DNA of 64,000 nt from an uncultured Tenacibaculum sp. GTDB taxonomy: Bacteria; Bacteroidota; Bacteroidia; Flavobacteriales; Flavobacteriaceae. This document shows, one piece after another, positions 22,120 to 33,562 of the stretch. The position numbers and the translations under genes are program-made. The DNA is taken from the NCBI GenBank assembly GCA_947492185.1, contig CANLMR010000006.1:1-64000 (forward strand), given 5' to 3'. The notes under the pieces are model-generated. The model saw nothing but the letters and a program-made list of their open reading frames with translations, was not told the origin of the DNA and searched no databases. How positions within the stretch are numbered: position 1 is the stretch's first letter; the number at the start of each line of letters is the position of its first letter.

Positions 22120-22161
22120 TACATTCAGACACTAAATTTCCACACAATTTTGTATAAAATT

Positions 22162-22190
22162 AAAAAAGGAACATAAAATGTTCCTTTTTT
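22162..22190. terminator. Perfect intrinsic terminator between two divergent genes
   Basis: 13-bp arms, AAAAAAGGAACAT and its complement, around a three-base loop. T runs follow on both strands. No annotated gene reads into it from either side. Confidence 0.8.
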
Positions 22191-22247
22191 ATATAGAAGT
22201 TCTTTATCAATGCGCTTTCCCTCCCTGAGTTATACGTATTTTTCAGT
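22162..22247 (-). ncRNA. Candidate small RNA upstream of the glycan operon
   Basis: The minus strand has a TAGATTTG box at 22261-22254. About 85 nt further on is the perfect terminator at 22190-22162. The RNA between would carry an unpaired G-rich stretch (CUCAGGGAGGGAAAGCG) and no sensible reading frame. The operon's own -7 box lies beyond the terminator, so this would be an independent transcript. No -33 box and no homologue recognised. Confidence 0.4.
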
Positions 22248-28209: not shown

Positions 28210-29331
28210 ATGATTCAACTAAAAGAAATACATTCTAAAAAGGAAATAAAACAATTTGTTTTATTTCCTTTTTCATTATATAAAACTAACAAATACTGGG
28301 TTCCTCCTATAATTAACGATGAAGTAAATAGTTTTGATAAAACTAAAAACCCGGTGTTTGAAAATGCAGATGCTCGTTTTTTTGTAGCCATGCAAAATGA
28401 TAAAATTGTTGGACGAGTAATTGCTATTATTAACAAATATGAGATTGAACAACAAGGCATAAAAAAAATGAGATTTGGTTGGTTTGATGTTATTGATGAC
28501 ATTGAAGTTACTAAAGTGCTTTTAAACAAAGTACAAGAAATTGCTAAAGAAAATAATTTAAAATACGTTGAAGGACCAGTTGGATTTAATAATCTAGATA
28601 AAACAGGGGTTTTAATAGACGGATTTGATGAATTAGGAACAATGATTACCTGGTATAATCATCCTTATTATAAAGATCATTTAGAACAACTTGGTTACAG
28701 AAAGGAAAAAGAATATTTAGAAAATAAATTCCTCTACGAAGACATTAAAATTGAAAGACATGTAAAAGCAGGAAGGATTCTAAAAAAAAGGTATAAGTTA
28801 AAAGAATTGAACTTCACAAAAACTAAAGACATTATGCCTTATGTGGATGAAATGTTTGAATTGTTCAGTAAAAGTTATTCTAAACTTTCTACTTATGTTC
28901 CAATTTCAGATTCGCAGATCGAGTATTTTAAAAAGAAATATATTAGTTTTATAAATCCTGAATATATAAAGTTTGTAATGCATGAAGAAACTAATAAACT
29001 AGTTGCTTTTGCCATTACTATGCCGTCATTTTCTAAAGCTTTACAAAAGGCAAAGGGAAAATTATTTCCATTTGGCATATTCCATTTACTAAATGCTAGA
29101 AAAAATTCTAAAGATGTTACTTTTTATCTGATTGGTGTAGATCCTGAATATCAAAATAAAGGAGTAACTGCAATTTTATTTGAGGAGTTCCATAAATCTT
29201 TTGGAGAAAGAAACATTAAAAACTGTATTAGAACTCCAGAACTAGAAGACAACACTGCTATCCATAAATTATGGTCGCAATTTAATCCCAGAACACATAA
29301 AAGAAGAAGAACTTATCGCCTAGACATATAA
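28210..29331 (+). CDS. GNAT-like N-acetyltransferase family protein
   Basis: 373 residues. The N-terminal half carries an acyltransferase-like region (FFVAMQNDKIVGRVIAIIN, KYVEGPVGFNNLDKTGVLIDGFDE). The C-terminal half has a GNAT core with FYLIGVDPEYQNKGVTAILFEEFHKSF, where QNKGV corresponds to the acetyl-CoA P-loop. Two-lobed members of this size are common and uncharacterised in Bacteroidota. Its TAA overlaps the rsmE ATG by one base, so the two are coupled. Confidence 0.75.
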   Translation: MIQLKEIHSKKEIKQFVLFPFSLYKTNKYWVPPIINDEVNSFDKTKNPVFENADARFFVAMQNDKIVGRVIAIINKYEIEQQGIKKMRFGWFDVIDDIEVTKVLLNKVQEIAKENNLKYVEGPVGFNNLDKTGVLIDGFDELGTMITWYNHPYYKDHLEQLGYRKEKEYLENKFLYEDIKIERHVKAGRILKKRYKLKELNFTKTKDIMPYVDEMFELFSKSYSKLSTYVPISDSQIEYFKKKYISFINPEYIKFVMHEETNKLVAFAITMPSFSKALQKAKGKLFPFGIFHLLNARKNSKDVTFYLIGVDPEYQNKGVTAILFEEFHKSFGERNIKNCIRTPELEDNTAIHKLWSQFNPRTHKRRRTYRLDI

Positions 29332-30035
29332 TGCAACTTTTTTTTAATCCAAATATTAACGAGAGTACCGAAGAAATTCTTTTTAGCAAAGAAGAAAGTC
29401 GTCACATAATTAAAGTATTACGAAAAAAACAAGGAGATATACTTTATATAACAAACGGAAAAGGTTACTTATTTTCTGCAGAAATTATTATTGAAAGTGA
29501 CAAAAAATGTCTTTCTAAAATAGTTAACACAAAGTACAGAAAGAAAGAATGGTCATACACTTTACATGTAGCTATTGCTCCAACAAAAAACATCGATCGA
29601 CTAGAATGGTTTATTGAAAAAGCTACTGAAATAGGTATAGATGAAATCACTCCAATTGTCTGCGAAAATTCTGAGCGAAAAGTAATAAAACACGATCGAC
29701 TTCAAAAAATAATGATTTCAGCTGTAAAGCAATCTTTAAAATTTAATGCCCCAAAGTTAAATCAATTAGTAAAATTCAACGACTTTATAAAAACTCAAAA
29801 AGAAGGTGATTTATTAATTGCACATTGTAATGAAGGAGAAAAGAAAATATTAAAGTCATTTATTTTTTCAGAAAAGAAAATAACTATCTTAATTGGCCCT
29901 GAAGGTGATTTTTCTCTTAAAGAAACTCAAAAAGCTATTCAAGCTAAATTTATCCCTATAACTTTAGGAGATAGCCGTTTAAGAACAGAAACAGCTGGTT
30001 TAGTAGCTGTTCATAGTGTTAGTTTTTTACACTAA
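29331..30035 (+). CDS. rsmE: 16S rRNA m3U1498 methyltransferase
   Basis: 234 residues. N-terminal PUA-like domain (ESRHIIKVLRKKQGD) and a C-terminal SPOUT knot with ITILIGPEGDFS and LGDSRLRTETAGL, the SAM-binding trefoil loops. Methylates N3 of U1498 in the decoding region of 16S rRNA. Length is normal for the family. Confidence 0.93.
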   Translation: MQLFFNPNINESTEEILFSKEESRHIIKVLRKKQGDILYITNGKGYLFSAEIIIESDKKCLSKIVNTKYRKKEWSYTLHVAIAPTKNIDRLEWFIEKATEIGIDEITPIVCENSERKVIKHDRLQKIMISAVKQSLKFNAPKLNQLVKFNDFIKTQKEGDLLIAHCNEGEKKILKSFIFSEKKITILIGPEGDFSLKETQKAIQAKFIPITLGDSRLRTETAGLVAVHSVSFLH

Positions 30036-30192
30036 AAAATGATAATCCCATTGGAGTTTAATCTTTTTTTGACTACTTTTAAATATCAAATTCTTACTTT
30101 TAGTGAAGTAAAATTACAGATTTAACACCTCCTTTTTACATTTATTTTACTAAATTTAAGTATCAAAAAAAACAATCTAATTACTAATCAGC

Positions 30193-31350
30193 TTGAGTAC
30201 TGCAGACTTTTTTAACATGTTCTTGCTAATAAGTGCAATACATGGATTTGCACTTTGTTTTATCATGTTTTTCTCAAAATATGGTAGAGATAAAAGTTTA
30301 CTGTTTTTAAACTTAATGATATTAACTATATCTCTTAACAATTTTCAATCTTGGGCTTTAGAAAGAAATTTGTTTCAGCATAAATTCATGTTAGATTATA
30401 TACAGATTCCTTGGCATTTTTTAAGTGCTCCTTTCTTTTATGCTTTCCTGATTAATTATTTAGATATTTATAATAAATCTAGAAGAATTCTAAAATACTT
30501 TATCATCATTTTTGTTGTAATGTGTGTTGCTCAAATATCATTTGTATTAAGTTACTCAATAGGTGGTGGTACAAAAGATGAATTAAATTACATATATGAA
30601 AGATATACATCTATTGAAGAATTAATTAGTTTTATTGGCTCTATTTCAGTTTTTGCCTATTCATTTTACATTCTTAGAGGAAAGAAAAAATTATTTACTA
30701 AAATATTAACCTACGATAATTTAAAATGGATTTATAACTTCTTTAAACTTACCTTACTAGTATATGTTTTATGGGTATTTGCTCTAGTAATTAAGTTTAG
30801 TTTAAATTTTACAGGTTTTATATATTCTTATTACCCACTAAGAATCTCTACAACTGTTATCATTTTTATTCTTGGTTATCAAGGATTAAGGTACTTACGT
30901 ATTTTAAAAGAGCGTAAAAATATCCGTGAAAATATAGATACTGAAAGTATTGATATAATTATTGAAAATGAAGATGACGTTAAATTAGGTAATAATGAAA
31001 ATAAATATGAATCTCAATTTTTAGAAATTGATAAATTCATTAAATCACAGAAAATATACTTACAGCCTAAATACACATTACAAAACTTATCTGGAGATTT
31101 AAATATTGGATCCAGCACATTATCTGCATCCATAAATAAAAATGCTAAAAAGAGTTTTGTTGATTATATTAATGAAATGAGAGTAAAACAAGCTAAAAAA
31201 TTTTTGCTCGATCATAAATATGAAGGTTATACTATTGCTTCAATAGGTTTAGAGTCTGGTTTTAACTCTAAATCTGCTTTTTATGATGTTTTTAAAAAAC
31301 ATACAGGAATGACACCGTTAGCTTTCAAAAATAATAATTTCAAAAAATAA
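30193..31350 (+). CDS. Membrane-bound AraC-type regulator
   Basis: 385 residues from TTG 30193; ATG 30217 is an alternative that also keeps the first helix. Seven hydrophobic segments occupy residues 8-240. A short acidic linker (TESIDIIIENEDDVKLGNNE) leads to an AraC helix-turn-helix domain of about 95 residues ending EGYTIASIGLESGFNSKSAFYDVFKKHTGMTPLAF. A 7-helix sensor fused to AraC is a widespread Bacteroidota design with unknown signals. The palindrome and small-RNA region starts 29 nt downstream and is a candidate target (inference only). Confidence 0.83.
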   Translation: MSTADFFNMFLLISAIHGFALCFIMFFSKYGRDKSLLFLNLMILTISLNNFQSWALERNLFQHKFMLDYIQIPWHFLSAPFFYAFLINYLDIYNKSRRILKYFIIIFVVMCVAQISFVLSYSIGGGTKDELNYIYERYTSIEELISFIGSISVFAYSFYILRGKKKLFTKILTYDNLKWIYNFFKLTLLVYVLWVFALVIKFSLNFTGFIYSYYPLRISTTVIIFILGYQGLRYLRILKERKNIRENIDTESIDIIIENEDDVKLGNNENKYESQFLEIDKFIKSQKIYLQPKYTLQNLSGDLNIGSSTLSASINKNAKKSFVDYINEMRVKQAKKFLLDHKYEGYTIASIGLESGFNSKSAFYDVFKKHTGMTPLAFKNNNFKK

Positions 31351-31378
31351 AAATCTTATTAGTTTTATAATTAACCTA

Positions 31379-31409
31379 TCCTAAAACATCCATATTGGAT
31401 GTTTTAGGA
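31379..31409. promoter_or_regulatory. 31-bp palindrome, site 1 (candidate operator)
   Basis: Perfect 13-bp arms, TCCTAAAACATCC and its complement, separated by ATATT. It ends 21 bp before the TATATTTA box of the first RNA candidate. No T run follows, which argues against a simple terminator of the AraC gene. Confidence 0.55.
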
Positions 31410-31444
31410 CTACTATTAATTCTTAGATTTTATATTTACCATAA

Positions 31445-31581
31445 ATTAAGAATAAATACAATATTTAAGTTTTAATAGTGTATTTATTACTTAACGTAGT
31501 ATTTAAAGAATATAGAGAGGTAATACGTCTCTCTATGAAGAGGGAAAAGCTCAAACACTGTTTTATTACAGTGTTTTTTTT
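31445..31581 (+). ncRNA. Candidate small RNA 1 of a tandem pair
   Basis: An imperfect -7 box (TATATTTA, 31431-31438) precedes it. The RNA would have a 10-bp hairpin (31451-31460 with 31479-31488) whose loop begins AUAUUUAAG, then the linker ACUUAACG. An 8-bp hairpin follows (31512-31519 with 31529-31536, AUAGAGAG arms). It ends with an 8-bp terminator stem (31553-31560 with 31569-31576) and a T run. No convincing reading frame. First-hairpin loop, linker and a GA-rich stretch resemble those of the second candidate. Confidence 0.5.
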
Positions 31582-31592
31582 ATACAAAGTTG

Positions 31593-31623
31593 TCCTAAAT
31601 CGTCCAAATCAGATGATTTAGGA
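31593..31623. promoter_or_regulatory. 31-bp palindrome, site 2 (candidate operator)
   Basis: TCCTAAATCGTCC and AGATGATTTAGGA around AAATC. 11 of 13 arm positions pair. Same 13-5-13 layout and same outer half-site (TCCTAAA/TTTAGGA) as site 1, 214 bp away. Ends 22 bp before the TATCTTTG box of RNA candidate 2. Confidence 0.55.
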
Positions 31624-31645
31624 GTCGAGTTGCTCTTTCCTTATT

Positions 31646-31653
31646 TATCTTTG
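31646..31653 (+). promoter_or_regulatory. -7 box (TATCTTTG) of small RNA candidate 2
   Basis: Exact TAnnTTTG match. A TTG at 31630-31632 is only 13 bases upstream, and the right arm of palindrome 2 occupies the region where a -33 element would normally sit. Confidence 0.6.
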
Positions 31654-31659
31654 TATCGA

Positions 31660-31757
31660 AACTTACATAAACCAGTAAATATATTTAGGGATTATTATTT
31701 ACTACTTTACTTCACGAACAAAGAGGCACCATTGAGAAGGGAATGGTGCTTTTTTTT
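31660..31757 (+). ncRNA. Candidate small RNA 2 of a tandem pair
   Basis: Predicted from the -7 box to a strong terminator (GCACCATT 31726-31733 with AATGGTGC 31742-31749, then eight T). It holds an 8-bp hairpin AGUAAAUA/UAUUUACU (31674-31681 with 31696-31703) whose loop carries UAUUUAGG, and the linker ACUUUACUUCACG. The GAGAAGGGAA loop of the terminator resembles GAAGAGGGAA in candidate 1. No coding potential seen. Confidence 0.55.
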
Positions 31758-31797
31758 ATTTCTTAATTATCCTATCTTGCATTAAAATTAAATAACA

Positions 31798-32436
31798 ATG
31801 AAGAAAATTTCATTTCTTTTATTATTATATACTTTCATAGTACAATCGCAAGAAATTGGAATATTAAAATATCAAGGTGGAGGAGATTGGTATTCAAATC
31901 CAACCTCATTACCTAATTTGATCAAATTCACAAATCAATATTGTAAAACATCTATAGATAATAATATAGCTACAGTTACCCCAAGTAGCATTGATGTCTT
32001 TAATTATCCTATTTTGTTCTTAACAGGACATGGAAATGTATATTTCGATAGTGATGACATCGAAAATCTTAAAAATTATTTAATATCTGGTGGTTTTTTA
32101 CACGTTTCCGACAATTATGGGCTTGATAAGTATATTAGAAGAGAGCTAAAGAAAATATTCCCAAAATTAGCATTACAAGAAATCCCTAAAAATCATCCTA
32201 TATATAATCAAACTTTTTCTTTTCCTAATGGCTTACCTAAAATTCATGAGCATGATAAAAAAGCACCACAAGGATTAGGTTTGTTTTATAAAGGTAGACT
32301 TGTAGTTTTTTATGATTATGAAAGTGATTTAAGTGATGGATGGGAAGATCAAATCGTTCATAAAAATCCACAAGAAATACGTTTAAAAGCTTTAAAAATG
32401 GGTGCTAATATTATTGAATATGCTTTTAAAAATTAA
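31798..32436 (+). CDS. DUF4159 secreted protein
   Basis: 212 residues with signal peptide (1-17, ending VQSQ). The family block YQGGGDWYSNPTSLPNLIKF is at about 24-43. A class I glutamine-amidotransferase-like core follows: ILFLTGHGNVYFDSDDIENLKNYLISGGFLHVSDN (GHG and GG turns as in ThuA-like folds). YDYESDLSDGWED is conserved near the C-terminus. Role unknown; DUF4159 genes are often near MoxR/vWA proteins elsewhere, but not here. It lies 40 nt after the small-RNA terminator, so it must have its own promoter. Confidence 0.8.
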   Translation: MKKISFLLLLYTFIVQSQEIGILKYQGGGDWYSNPTSLPNLIKFTNQYCKTSIDNNIATVTPSSIDVFNYPILFLTGHGNVYFDSDDIENLKNYLISGGFLHVSDNYGLDKYIRRELKKIFPKLALQEIPKNHPIYNQTFSFPNGLPKIHEHDKKAPQGLGLFYKGRLVVFYDYESDLSDGWEDQIVHKNPQEIRLKALKMGANIIEYAFKN

Positions 32437-32447
32437 CTTTTAAGCTT

Positions 32448-32966
32448 CTACACTGTTTTTCCATAGTAGTTTAAATCTACCAATTCTCCTTTTGTAGTTT
32501 TATAATCTTTAGTTATAACTCCTTCCAATTTAAACCCACAGCGTAATGCAAGCTGAATACTTCTAGTATTCTCATCTGCAATTCGACAGAATAACTTTTT
32601 AAATTGATGAATATTAACCACTTTACCTATTAGATGGTTAAAACTTTCAGTTATGATTCCTTTTCCTTCAAAATTAACATCTATAAAAGCTCCTAACTCA
32701 GCTTTGGGTATATTCCAATCAATATTCTTAAAATCAATAAATCCAATTGGTGCTCCCTTTTTATTAAAAATCAGGTAAGGTAAATATACTTTTAGTATTA
32801 TTTTTTCTTCAATATTTTTACAGTAATCAATTGTTTCTTGAAGTGTTCGAGTACACTTCATGGTTCCTGCAAAATAATCCTCTAATCTATCTTTATTCCT
32901 TTGTAATAACTCAAAAAAAGGAATTGCGTCTTTTTGTGATATTAATCTAATAGTATAATCTTTCAT
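32448..32966 (-). CDS. GNAT acetyltransferase, RimJ/RimL-like
   Basis: 172 residues. Starts YTIRLISQKDAIPFFELLQRNKDRLEDYF, as in RimJ/RimL and ribosomal-protein N-acetyltransferases. The core ELGAFIDVNFEGKGIITESFNHLI includes the acetyl-CoA loop (EGKGI), and the C-terminal RIADENTRSIQLALRCGFKLEGV is diagnostic. Could acetylate a protein N-terminus or a small amine; substrate unknown. Downstream of a Crp gene in the same direction, with a 59-nt gap. Confidence 0.85.
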   Translation of the reverse strand: MKDYTIRLISQKDAIPFFELLQRNKDRLEDYFAGTMKCTRTLQETIDYCKNIEEKIILKVYLPYLIFNKKGAPIGFIDFKNIDWNIPKAELGAFIDVNFEGKGIITESFNHLIGKVVNIHQFKKLFCRIADENTRSIQLALRCGFKLEGVITKDYKTTKGELVDLNYYGKTV

Positions 32967-33025
32967 TTACTTTCTTTTATAAACTGTAAATTAATAATAG
33001 AATACAAAATAGACATTGATTCAAA

Positions 33026-33562
33026 TCATGTTTTTTTTAATCTACTTAATGTCTCTGGAGCCATTCTTAAGTATGAAGCTATATGTTTATGTGGTATTTT
33101 CTGAAAAAGCTTTGGATTTCGCTCTAAAGCTTTTAAATAACGTTCTTCCGGGGAATTTAACAACAACTCCTTTTCACGTTCGAATTGATAGATTATTAAA
33201 TCCTCTAATACTTTATTCCACAGTTTTACATATTTGATATTAGAATTCAAAAAACTCTCAAATTCTTCTTTTGATAGATAGAAAATTTCCGTTTTTTTTA
33301 TTGCTTGGATTTCAAGATTGGATTTATTATTCGAAATAAAACTATCTAATGCAGTAATGATAGAATCTTCATAACCGAAATAAAGAATGTACTCTACTTC
33401 TTTATGAACAAAGTAAACCTTTACACTTCCTGAAATAATGAAATAAACATTATTGTCAAATGTATCAGCTAATTTAATGAACTCTTCTCTTTTGAAAGTT
33501 TTTTTCTTTACTAAAACTTCCTCGTTAAGAATACACTCCTTTAATAACTGATACGATTTCAA
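33026..33562 (-). CDS. Crp/Fnr-type regulator
   Basis: 178 residues, slightly short for the family. Jelly-roll at 15-110 (NNVYFIISGSVKVYFVHKEVEYILYFGYEDSII). C-terminal helix-turn-helix IPHKHIASYLRMAPETLSRLKK, the standard Bacteroidota Crp-like recognition helix. No cAMP-type RxS pocket is visible. Targets unknown; it sits 11 nt after the GH3 fusion gene, so co-transcription with it is likely. Confidence 0.85.
   Translation of the reverse strand: MKSYQLLKECILNEEVLVKKKTFKREEFIKLADTFDNNVYFIISGSVKVYFVHKEVEYILYFGYEDSIITALDSFISNNKSNLEIQAIKKTEIFYLSKEEFESFLNSNIKYVKLWNKVLEDLIIYQFEREKELLLNSPEERYLKALERNPKLFQKIPHKHIASYLRMAPETLSRLKKT

Follow-up and report, generated by a model that had tools for sequence, protein, structure and literature searches.

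A probable AraC-family membrane switch with small-RNA output at the rsmE-DUF4159 locus of Tenacibaculum

Behind an AraC-family gene of an uncultured Tenacibaculum sp. lie two palindromes of the same build, each followed by a short terminated stretch, which raises the question of what is made from these stretches, what controls them and how such an arrangement could have arisen. The locus was studied in a window of 64,000 nucleotides (the whole stretch of DNA analysed) on contig C6 of a 3.39-Mb genome whose named relatives are Tenacibaculum. Its order is rsmE (29331-30035), the AraC-family gene, palindrome 1, RNA 1, palindrome 2, RNA 2 and a DUF4159 gene (31798-32436); coordinates of the features under study are collected in Table 1.

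Table 1. Observed and predicted features between rsmE and the DUF4159 gene, in window coordinates.
Feature	Position	Strand	Evidence
AraC-family regulator, probably membrane-bound	30193-31350	+	HTH_18 60.7 bits; AlphaFold model; orthologues at the same place
Palindrome 1, a 31-bp site at about -64 to -34 and candidate operator through which AraC would act on RNA 1	31379-31409	.	R2 64.7 bits
-7 promoter element TATATTTA of RNA 1	31431-31438	+	Starts 21 bp past palindrome 1; consensus TANNTTTG (PMC6847099)
RNA 1, a predicted RNA of ~139 nt with a 5' hairpin, a second hairpin (hairpin 2), a purine linker GAAGAGGGAAAAG and a terminator	31443-31581	+	Fold z -4.96; R3; compensatory changes
Palindrome 2, a 31-bp site and candidate operator through which AraC would act on RNA 2	31593-31623	.	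R2 59.5 bits
-7 promoter element TATCTTTG of RNA 2	31646-31653	+	Starts 22 bp past palindrome 2
RNA 2, a predicted RNA of ~100 nt with a conserved 5' stretch AAACUUACAUA, a hairpin whose loop is UUUAGGGAUU and a terminator whose loop is GAAGGGA	31658-31757	+	Fold z -4.48; R1; alignment

An earlier note on this DNA had described the palindromes, their TCCTAAA/TTTAGGA outer half-sites, the 214 bp between them and the spacing of the -7 elements, all of which we find as described. The palindromes are 81% identical, and the genome scan that the note proposed listed them as the only places matching TCCTAAA-N17-TTTAGGA without a mismatch. Allowing up to three mismatches gives 864 sites per strand, and the reversed control gives 807; only the exact sites therefore stand out. 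Palindromes of 13-5-13 layout pairing at 13 of 13 positions number three in the window (20 first-order Markov sequences average 0.0), and two of the three are unrelated in sequence (22161-22191 and 28240-28270, the latter inside a reading frame); at 11 or more pairs there are eight against 3.9 expected, and palindrome 2, with 11 pairs, is therefore not striking on its own. The Bacteroidota promoter consensus in the available part of PMC6847099 is TTTG/TANNTTTG, with the element numbered -12 to -5, and from this numbering follow the predicted starts near 31443 and 31658 and the position of palindrome 1 relative to its start.

Terminator hairpins start at 31553 and 31720, and a scan of 30000-33500 found three terminator sites, one of them the reverse of another, where 0.5 were expected. 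None of 200 shuffles folded as well as either RNA, and for a version of RNA 2 that is 5 nt longer (z -4.28) one of 200 did. Judged from their sequence, both predicted transcripts have their own promoter and their own terminator and are free of a conserved reading frame, as is proper to Rho-independent small RNAs; the earlier note, too, had taken them for small RNAs. Its remark that no described family resembles them also stands: Rfam gave no gathering match in the window, and its covariance models, FopS included, found nothing on the RNAs in eight loci at E up to 1.

The covarying homologues on which that note had made its proposal depend were found for RNA 1. In an alignment (A3) using 39 of 48 rows, 93.4% of the cells of hairpin 2 and the terminator are paired and 13 of 17 pairs have changed on both sides, a result that may be flattered by the omission of short or divergent rows (L099, L115, L148, L149, L158, L160, L161, L162 and L183). 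Changes on both sides fill 85 cells, where shuffles average 27.4 and sliding leaves 1-17, and hairpin 2 and the terminator of RNA 1 thus show conserved structure with compensatory changes. L155, cut at a false early terminator, was omitted from the alignments, and row L184 of alignment A6 has wrong coordinates. RNA 2 of the core clade has a mean column identity of 85% over 15 copies, in which AAACUUACAUA, GUAAAUA, AGGGAU and UAUUUACU are invariant. The RNA 1 model (R3) scores 88.1 bits and the RNA 2 model (R1) 115 bits on the respective RNAs of the window, each of which belongs to the model's own training set.

Short purine motifs recur in these RNAs. AGGG is present in 69 of 78 transcripts (11.5 in mononucleotide shuffles) and AAGGGG in 38 (0.6 in such shuffles); GAARARGRRRR, chosen after the alignment had been viewed, lies near the end of RNA 1 in 44 of 49 cases against 0.06 in shuffles. 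The exposed motifs are AAGGGG/UAGGGA in loops and GAAAAAGGAAAAG-like stretches ahead of the RNA 1 terminator, and in two RNA 2 molecules of deep clades that were folded AAGGGG occupies the loop of an inner hairpin and occurs again in the linker.

The earlier note had further seen a shared 5' hairpin in the two RNAs and taken them for paralogues under one regulator. The loop and linker letters it cited are present, but the 5' domains of the window's pair are no more alike than chance: in a terminator-free alignment test of 26 genomes with 200 shuffles each, 30 of 200 scored as high for the window. The count was 0 for L102 and L105, 1 for L087, 7 for L100 and L101, 13 for L103 and at least 30 for the other 20. 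Paralogy by covariance model was rejected, since R1 listed no match on RNA 1 in the window and R3 reaches up to 42 bits on RNA 2, no better than its opposite-strand matches of up to 43 bits. The pair in the window does not show paralogy; a count of 0-1 of 200 was reached in three of the 26 genomes, and most gave no signal. The other half of that claim, two RNA genes under one regulator, is favoured by the comparisons that follow.

To survey the genus we used R2, a model of box plus promoter built from 71 sites, together with matches to the AraC protein at E 1e-60. Of 166 genomes, 71 have an AraC match, and all 52 that R2 matches at E 0.01 are among them, giving a tally of 52 with both, none with the box alone, 19 with AraC alone and 95 with neither; because box and AraC gene share one locus, this co-occurrence is by itself weak evidence of binding. 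Among the 52 is G013, whose match, to a type-B site (see below), is borderline at E 0.009. At E 0.001 R2 matched one of 299 genomes of the family, the window's own; both searches ran stricter filters that miss weak matches. All three R2 matches in the window's genome lie at the AraC locus. Nothing in the window upstream of araC was matched by R2, and autoregulation of araC through the same box was rejected on that ground.

The stretch behind AraC was examined in 69 of the 71 AraC genomes (30 loci and 39 stretches). It contains 80 sites that score at least 23 of 28 against the box consensus, and 78 of these, from 50 genomes, give a terminated transcript: one per genome in 24, two in 24 and three in 2. 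The remaining two are a chance match and a site (L099) ahead of a lipoprotein-like gene. At L099 and at L046 (T. adriaticum) a second box of the AraC locus precedes a lipoprotein-like gene and not an RNA. The -7 element lies 22 bp past the box at 64 of the 78 sites and 21 bp past it at 14, a spacing that is partly selected because the best match within 18-26 bp past the box was taken as the element; 68 of the elements fit TAHHTTTR (54 at 22 bp, 14 at 21 bp).

For comparison, 46 loci (6 + 40) have no AraC gene at this place, one of them (L303) being just 211 bases long; G264, G272 and G222 in this set have an AraC homologue elsewhere. R2 found nothing in the 46 at E 0.1, and in 45 of them no R3 match improved on E 0.13. 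The end of rsmE lies 34-216 bp ahead of DUF4159 in 28 of the 40 and was not recognised in 12. The exception is G264 (L132:1263-1413), where AraC gene and box are lost and an RNA 1 with a GAAGGGG loop is kept (51 bits, E 6e-7); as R3 reaches 43 bits on opposite strands, this call leans also on hairpins and motif seen by eye.

Behind the AraC gene the number of RNA genes ranges from one to ten. Tenacibaculum sp. M341 (L044:5488-8312) has nine tandem copies of RNA 2 (by R1) at a period of 328 bp, every one with its own 41-bp box, and one RNA 1 (by R3). In copies 3-9 of this array the linker contains a CCCC run, and the terminator loop of copies 3-8 has lost its GGG. Boxes measure 31 or 32 bp, 41 bp in this one nine-copy array and 51 bp at one site (in G208), the 32-bp boxes being those of G208 and G210. 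The gap between half-boxes changes by about whole helical turns, so that in the length variants, which represent few independent events, both half-boxes still face the same side of the helix, as they should if a dimeric protein binds them.

The AlphaFold model of the AraC protein (mean pLDDT 81.3) has seven long helices (residues 3-250) followed by a C-terminal AraC DNA-binding domain (residues ~270-383). Both profile (HTH_18, cut-off 33.6 bits) and fold match the AraC domains, and the C-terminal double-HTH domain places the protein among the AraC/XylS regulators; its probable membrane nature was judged from the sequence. A Foldseek search for the identity of the 7-TM domain gave just loose receptor-like matches, which we took as uninformative. 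Nineteen named Tenacibaculum contigs carry an orthologue; the scan found the box on 18, and the nineteenth (L048) has a visible one. Both boxes are present at the locus of T. skagerrakense DSM 14836 (L037).

In the AraC tree the proteins with this box (type A) form one clade (support 97/92), save L091, a misread row whose long branch distorts the drawn root; G207, labelled 'none', has a type-B box. Clade B, a second group in the genus, sits mostly at the same rsmE-DUF4159 locus. Its box is of 32 bp and of the type TCCAGAATTTCTT...GAAATTCTGGA, about 22 bp from TAATTTGG-like elements, and precedes protein genes, one product of which matches DUF3575. We call clade B related and not sister to clade A because the tree sets four further paralogues beside A and the drawn root is unreliable. 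Boxes of types A and B have TCC and an A-rich outer part in common and differ in the inner part. Ten positions of the DNA-binding domain are specific to A or B; among them, T309 and N315 of the first recognition helix become K, whereas the second (359-369) is nearly common to both (366 is V/T; 362 and 365 vary). The first recognition helix differs more between A and B proteins than the second does, and some specific residues lie outside it, one (366) in the second. We infer that HTH2 may read the outer and HTH1 the inner half of the box.

R2 also found 12 sites unlinked to this locus, all of which were fetched and all of which occur in genomes that have the AraC gene. Eight (L215, L216 and L219-L224, in eight genomes) precede a third RNA of roughly 55-75 nt with a UCCCCC run and a strong terminator; three (G210, G208 and the type-B site of G013) lie ahead of lipoprotein-like genes, the lipobox being judged by eye; and one (G002, E 0.008) is equivocal. 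The third RNA adjoins phnA in all five genomes where phnA was seen (G008, G217, G218, G237 and G239), and a check of phnA in 30 genomes did not find it in the other 27; in the window's genome the contig ends there. Upstream of phnA in G017 (L240) two half-boxes are separated by about 90 bp and may form a split or looping site. A role of the third RNA as antisense to the GGGG loops is unsupported: of the eight genomes that have the third RNA, seven showed an RNA 1, and in none of the seven does it contain GGGG. Two of its loci carry an S16-Flavobacteria ribosomal protein leader (RF03138) above gathering score on the minus strand (L216:1759-1793 and L219:1791-1825).

The reading we prefer is that of an AraC-type one-component membrane switch with RNA output, in which the regulator probably activates a family of small RNAs; promoter anatomy, terminators, conservation and the coupling of box and AraC gene point to it at the level of sequence. 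Going by anatomy and comparison, the AraC protein would sense a signal in the membrane or outside, bind the palindrome as a dimer at a position immediately ahead of the -33 region and activate short Rho-independent transcripts, whose copy number would shift by tandem duplication. In the window's genome the regulator appears to act through this box only by RNA, since its two promoters are the only R2 matches; boxes elsewhere that precede OMP-like or lipoprotein-like genes were also counted for this reading. The least certain step is the last, in which the RNAs would most likely base-pair with messages of envelope proteins without Hfq. No single seed rule fits, because several RNA 1 genes of clade A are without the GGGG hairpin and the unlinked RNA of eight genomes has a C-run.

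Could the RNAs instead be decoys, their repeated exposed GGG/GGA motifs in loops and linkers titrating an RNA-binding protein as RsmX/Y/Z do CsrA/RsmA? We regard this as unlikely. A short purine motif is indeed repeated in loop and linker, a palindrome upstream of tandem RNAs is like the Gac/Rsm layout, and the M341 array suits titration. However, profiles for CsrA (PF02599), Hfq (PF17209) and RRM_1 (PF00076) found no match in the genome, where the same profiles matched 3, 5 and 2 of 14 control genomes (one of the latter two a Bacteroides), so that the decoyed protein would be some other; moreover, a long linear 5' stretch is retained in core-clade RNA 2, a feature that suits a pairing seed better.

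That some other factor reads the box, the AraC gene being merely its neighbour, we hold to be distinctly improbable. AraC-type proteins often read asymmetric or direct sites, AraC binding is here just predicted, and a Crp-like gene (cNMP_binding) lies in the window at 33026-33562. Against another factor speak the co-occurrence tally, the confinement of unlinked boxes to genomes with AraC, the boxes of different sequence behind related AraC genes in other genera, and G264, where the box is gone with AraC though RNA 1 stays. It is these comparisons, with the clade-specific boxes and the joint loss in G264, that favour the membrane AraC protein as regulator, which the earlier note had named as one candidate.

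The transcripts are very improbable as short messages for small peptides: a closed frame of at least 15 aa (ATG, GTG or TTG start; up to 45 aa) occurs in 23 of 77, with one of 26 aa in RNA 2 of L088, but the longest such frame starts with ATG in just 6 of 77, frames differ between relatives by eye, and base changes in RNA 1 preserve stems. No likelier is the reading that the palindromes act as RNA (a terminator or 3'-end hairpin of AraC, with the transcripts as read-through), which the earlier note had in part offered against itself and which we rejected: palindrome 1, 29 bp past the AraC stop, has a predicted folding energy of -18.6 kcal/mol, but it is followed by no U run, each RNA 2 copy of M341 has its own box, boxes also stand at unlinked places, and the half-box gap varies in helical turns.

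If an AraC-driven RNA output is accepted, the relatives of the regulator may tell how it arose. Seventeen related AraC genes lie outside clade A (L072-L085, of which one is from Tenacibaculum and 13 are from other genera, and L086, L056 and L057), and 13 have a TCC..GGA box right behind the gene, 18-83 nt past the stop: a 31-bp TCC..GGA box in six and TCCGAAATTATCGTTGGAC at up to two mismatches in seven, these boxes being partly defined after they had been seen. Elsewhere in each of these loci the best likeness to TCCGAAATTATCGTTGGAC has six mismatches, and in L072, L074, L075 and L077 neither box type is clear. The window genome's own paralogue, L086 (C7:11645-12730), is, like L073, L078, L080-L085 and others, a 7-helix AraC with its own TCC..GGA box past the stop. 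Protein frames come next in most of the 17 loci, and R3 at E 0.05 matched in none. An operator behind its own gene seems to be a habit of this AraC family, the putative RNA output being found in clade A only. The switch would be old and the RNA output looks new, since the differing TCC..GGA boxes of the related genes nearly all precede protein genes.

Traces of a source may be visible in clade-B or related loci, where GAARARGRRRR stands shortly ahead of DUF4159 in 6 of 16 (0.03 in shuffles). It sits there in a UUGAAAAAGRGAA-like stretch followed by a terminator, in the 3' UTR (L164, L170, L173, L176, L182 and L184). R3 matches ahead of DUF4159 in G020 (E 5e-6), G248 (0.003) and G213 (0.007); these three matches run partly across coding sequence and rest mainly on motif plus terminator. 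A fourth weak match among these loci is located elsewhere. The likeness of its purine motif and terminator to the 3' UTR of operons under related AraC proteins suggests that RNA 1 may descend from a messenger tail. In G060 (L073, another genus) a 31-bp box is followed by a short remnant that has no 50-aa frame, then by UUAGGGGAACAAA and a terminator; by eye the remnant resembles the two ends of an outer-membrane protein gene, and it is perhaps a messenger turning into RNA, a possible intermediate. It is possible, if still tentative, that the small RNAs were born from such a tail, the coding part having gone and operator, promoter and 3' UTR being left to stand alone and then copied into arrays of up to ten, so that a membrane receptor would speak through RNA without an Hfq, CsrA or RRM protein; the homology of messenger tail and RNA is putative, and so is the direction of the change.

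Several known systems share parts of this design. In SgrR/SgrS, GcvA/GcvB and OxyR/OxyS a small RNA lies beside the gene of its own regulator, and here too a transcription factor, probably dedicated, adjoins its RNAs; those RNAs, unlike these, are single copies under soluble regulators and without a tandem array. The RsmX/Y/Z RNAs of pseudomonads, under GacA, have a palindromic upstream activating site and exposed GGG/GGA motifs, and a regulator acting through small RNAs from a palindromic site is likewise what we propose. Gac works through RsmY/Z (PMC4132741, in the available part). The present genome differs in giving no CsrA match and in having an AraC protein with a membrane part and not a response regulator.

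As described in the available part of PMC4132741, LhrC1-5 of Listeria are multicopy, near-identical small RNAs under one envelope-responsive regulator, LisRK; control by one regulator is predicted here. LhrC differs in its two-component regulator, in the UCCC motif that acts on Shine-Dalgarno sequences and in binding Hfq, against a 7-helix AraC, purine motifs and no Hfq match. With several copies and a repeated exposed motif, LhrC would be the best work-alike, with neither homology nor membership claimed. Within the phylum, FopS of Bacteroides pairs with susC-type messages and belongs to a multicopy, bile-salt-responsive family; FopS/GibS, with RbpB, resemble the present RNAs as multicopy Bacteroidota RNAs with a single-stranded 5' region and a terminator (PMC11697453, in the part available). 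They are tied to RbpB, and that part describes no adjacent regulator or palindrome, whereas here there is neither an RRM_1 nor an Rfam match; FopS may be regarded as nearest in the phylum, membership not being claimed. In open-licence literature on small RNAs in Tenacibaculum, Flavobacteriia and Bacteroidota, nothing on an AraC-palindrome small-RNA system was among the matches listed.

Marine Tenacibaculum probably convert a cell-surface signal into regulatory RNA. The Bacteroidota are, by the available part of PMC6847099, a phylum without Shine-Dalgarno use, and in a genome without an Hfq, CsrA or RRM_1 match the action of small RNAs is a live question. The locus combines in little space a regulator of its own, a clear operator and natural variants in copy number (1, 2, 3 and 10). 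It also offers a natural loss, with the RNA kept and the regulator lost, and relatives in which a switch of the same kind drives protein genes, so that the action and the origin of small RNAs in Flavobacteriia become directly testable there.
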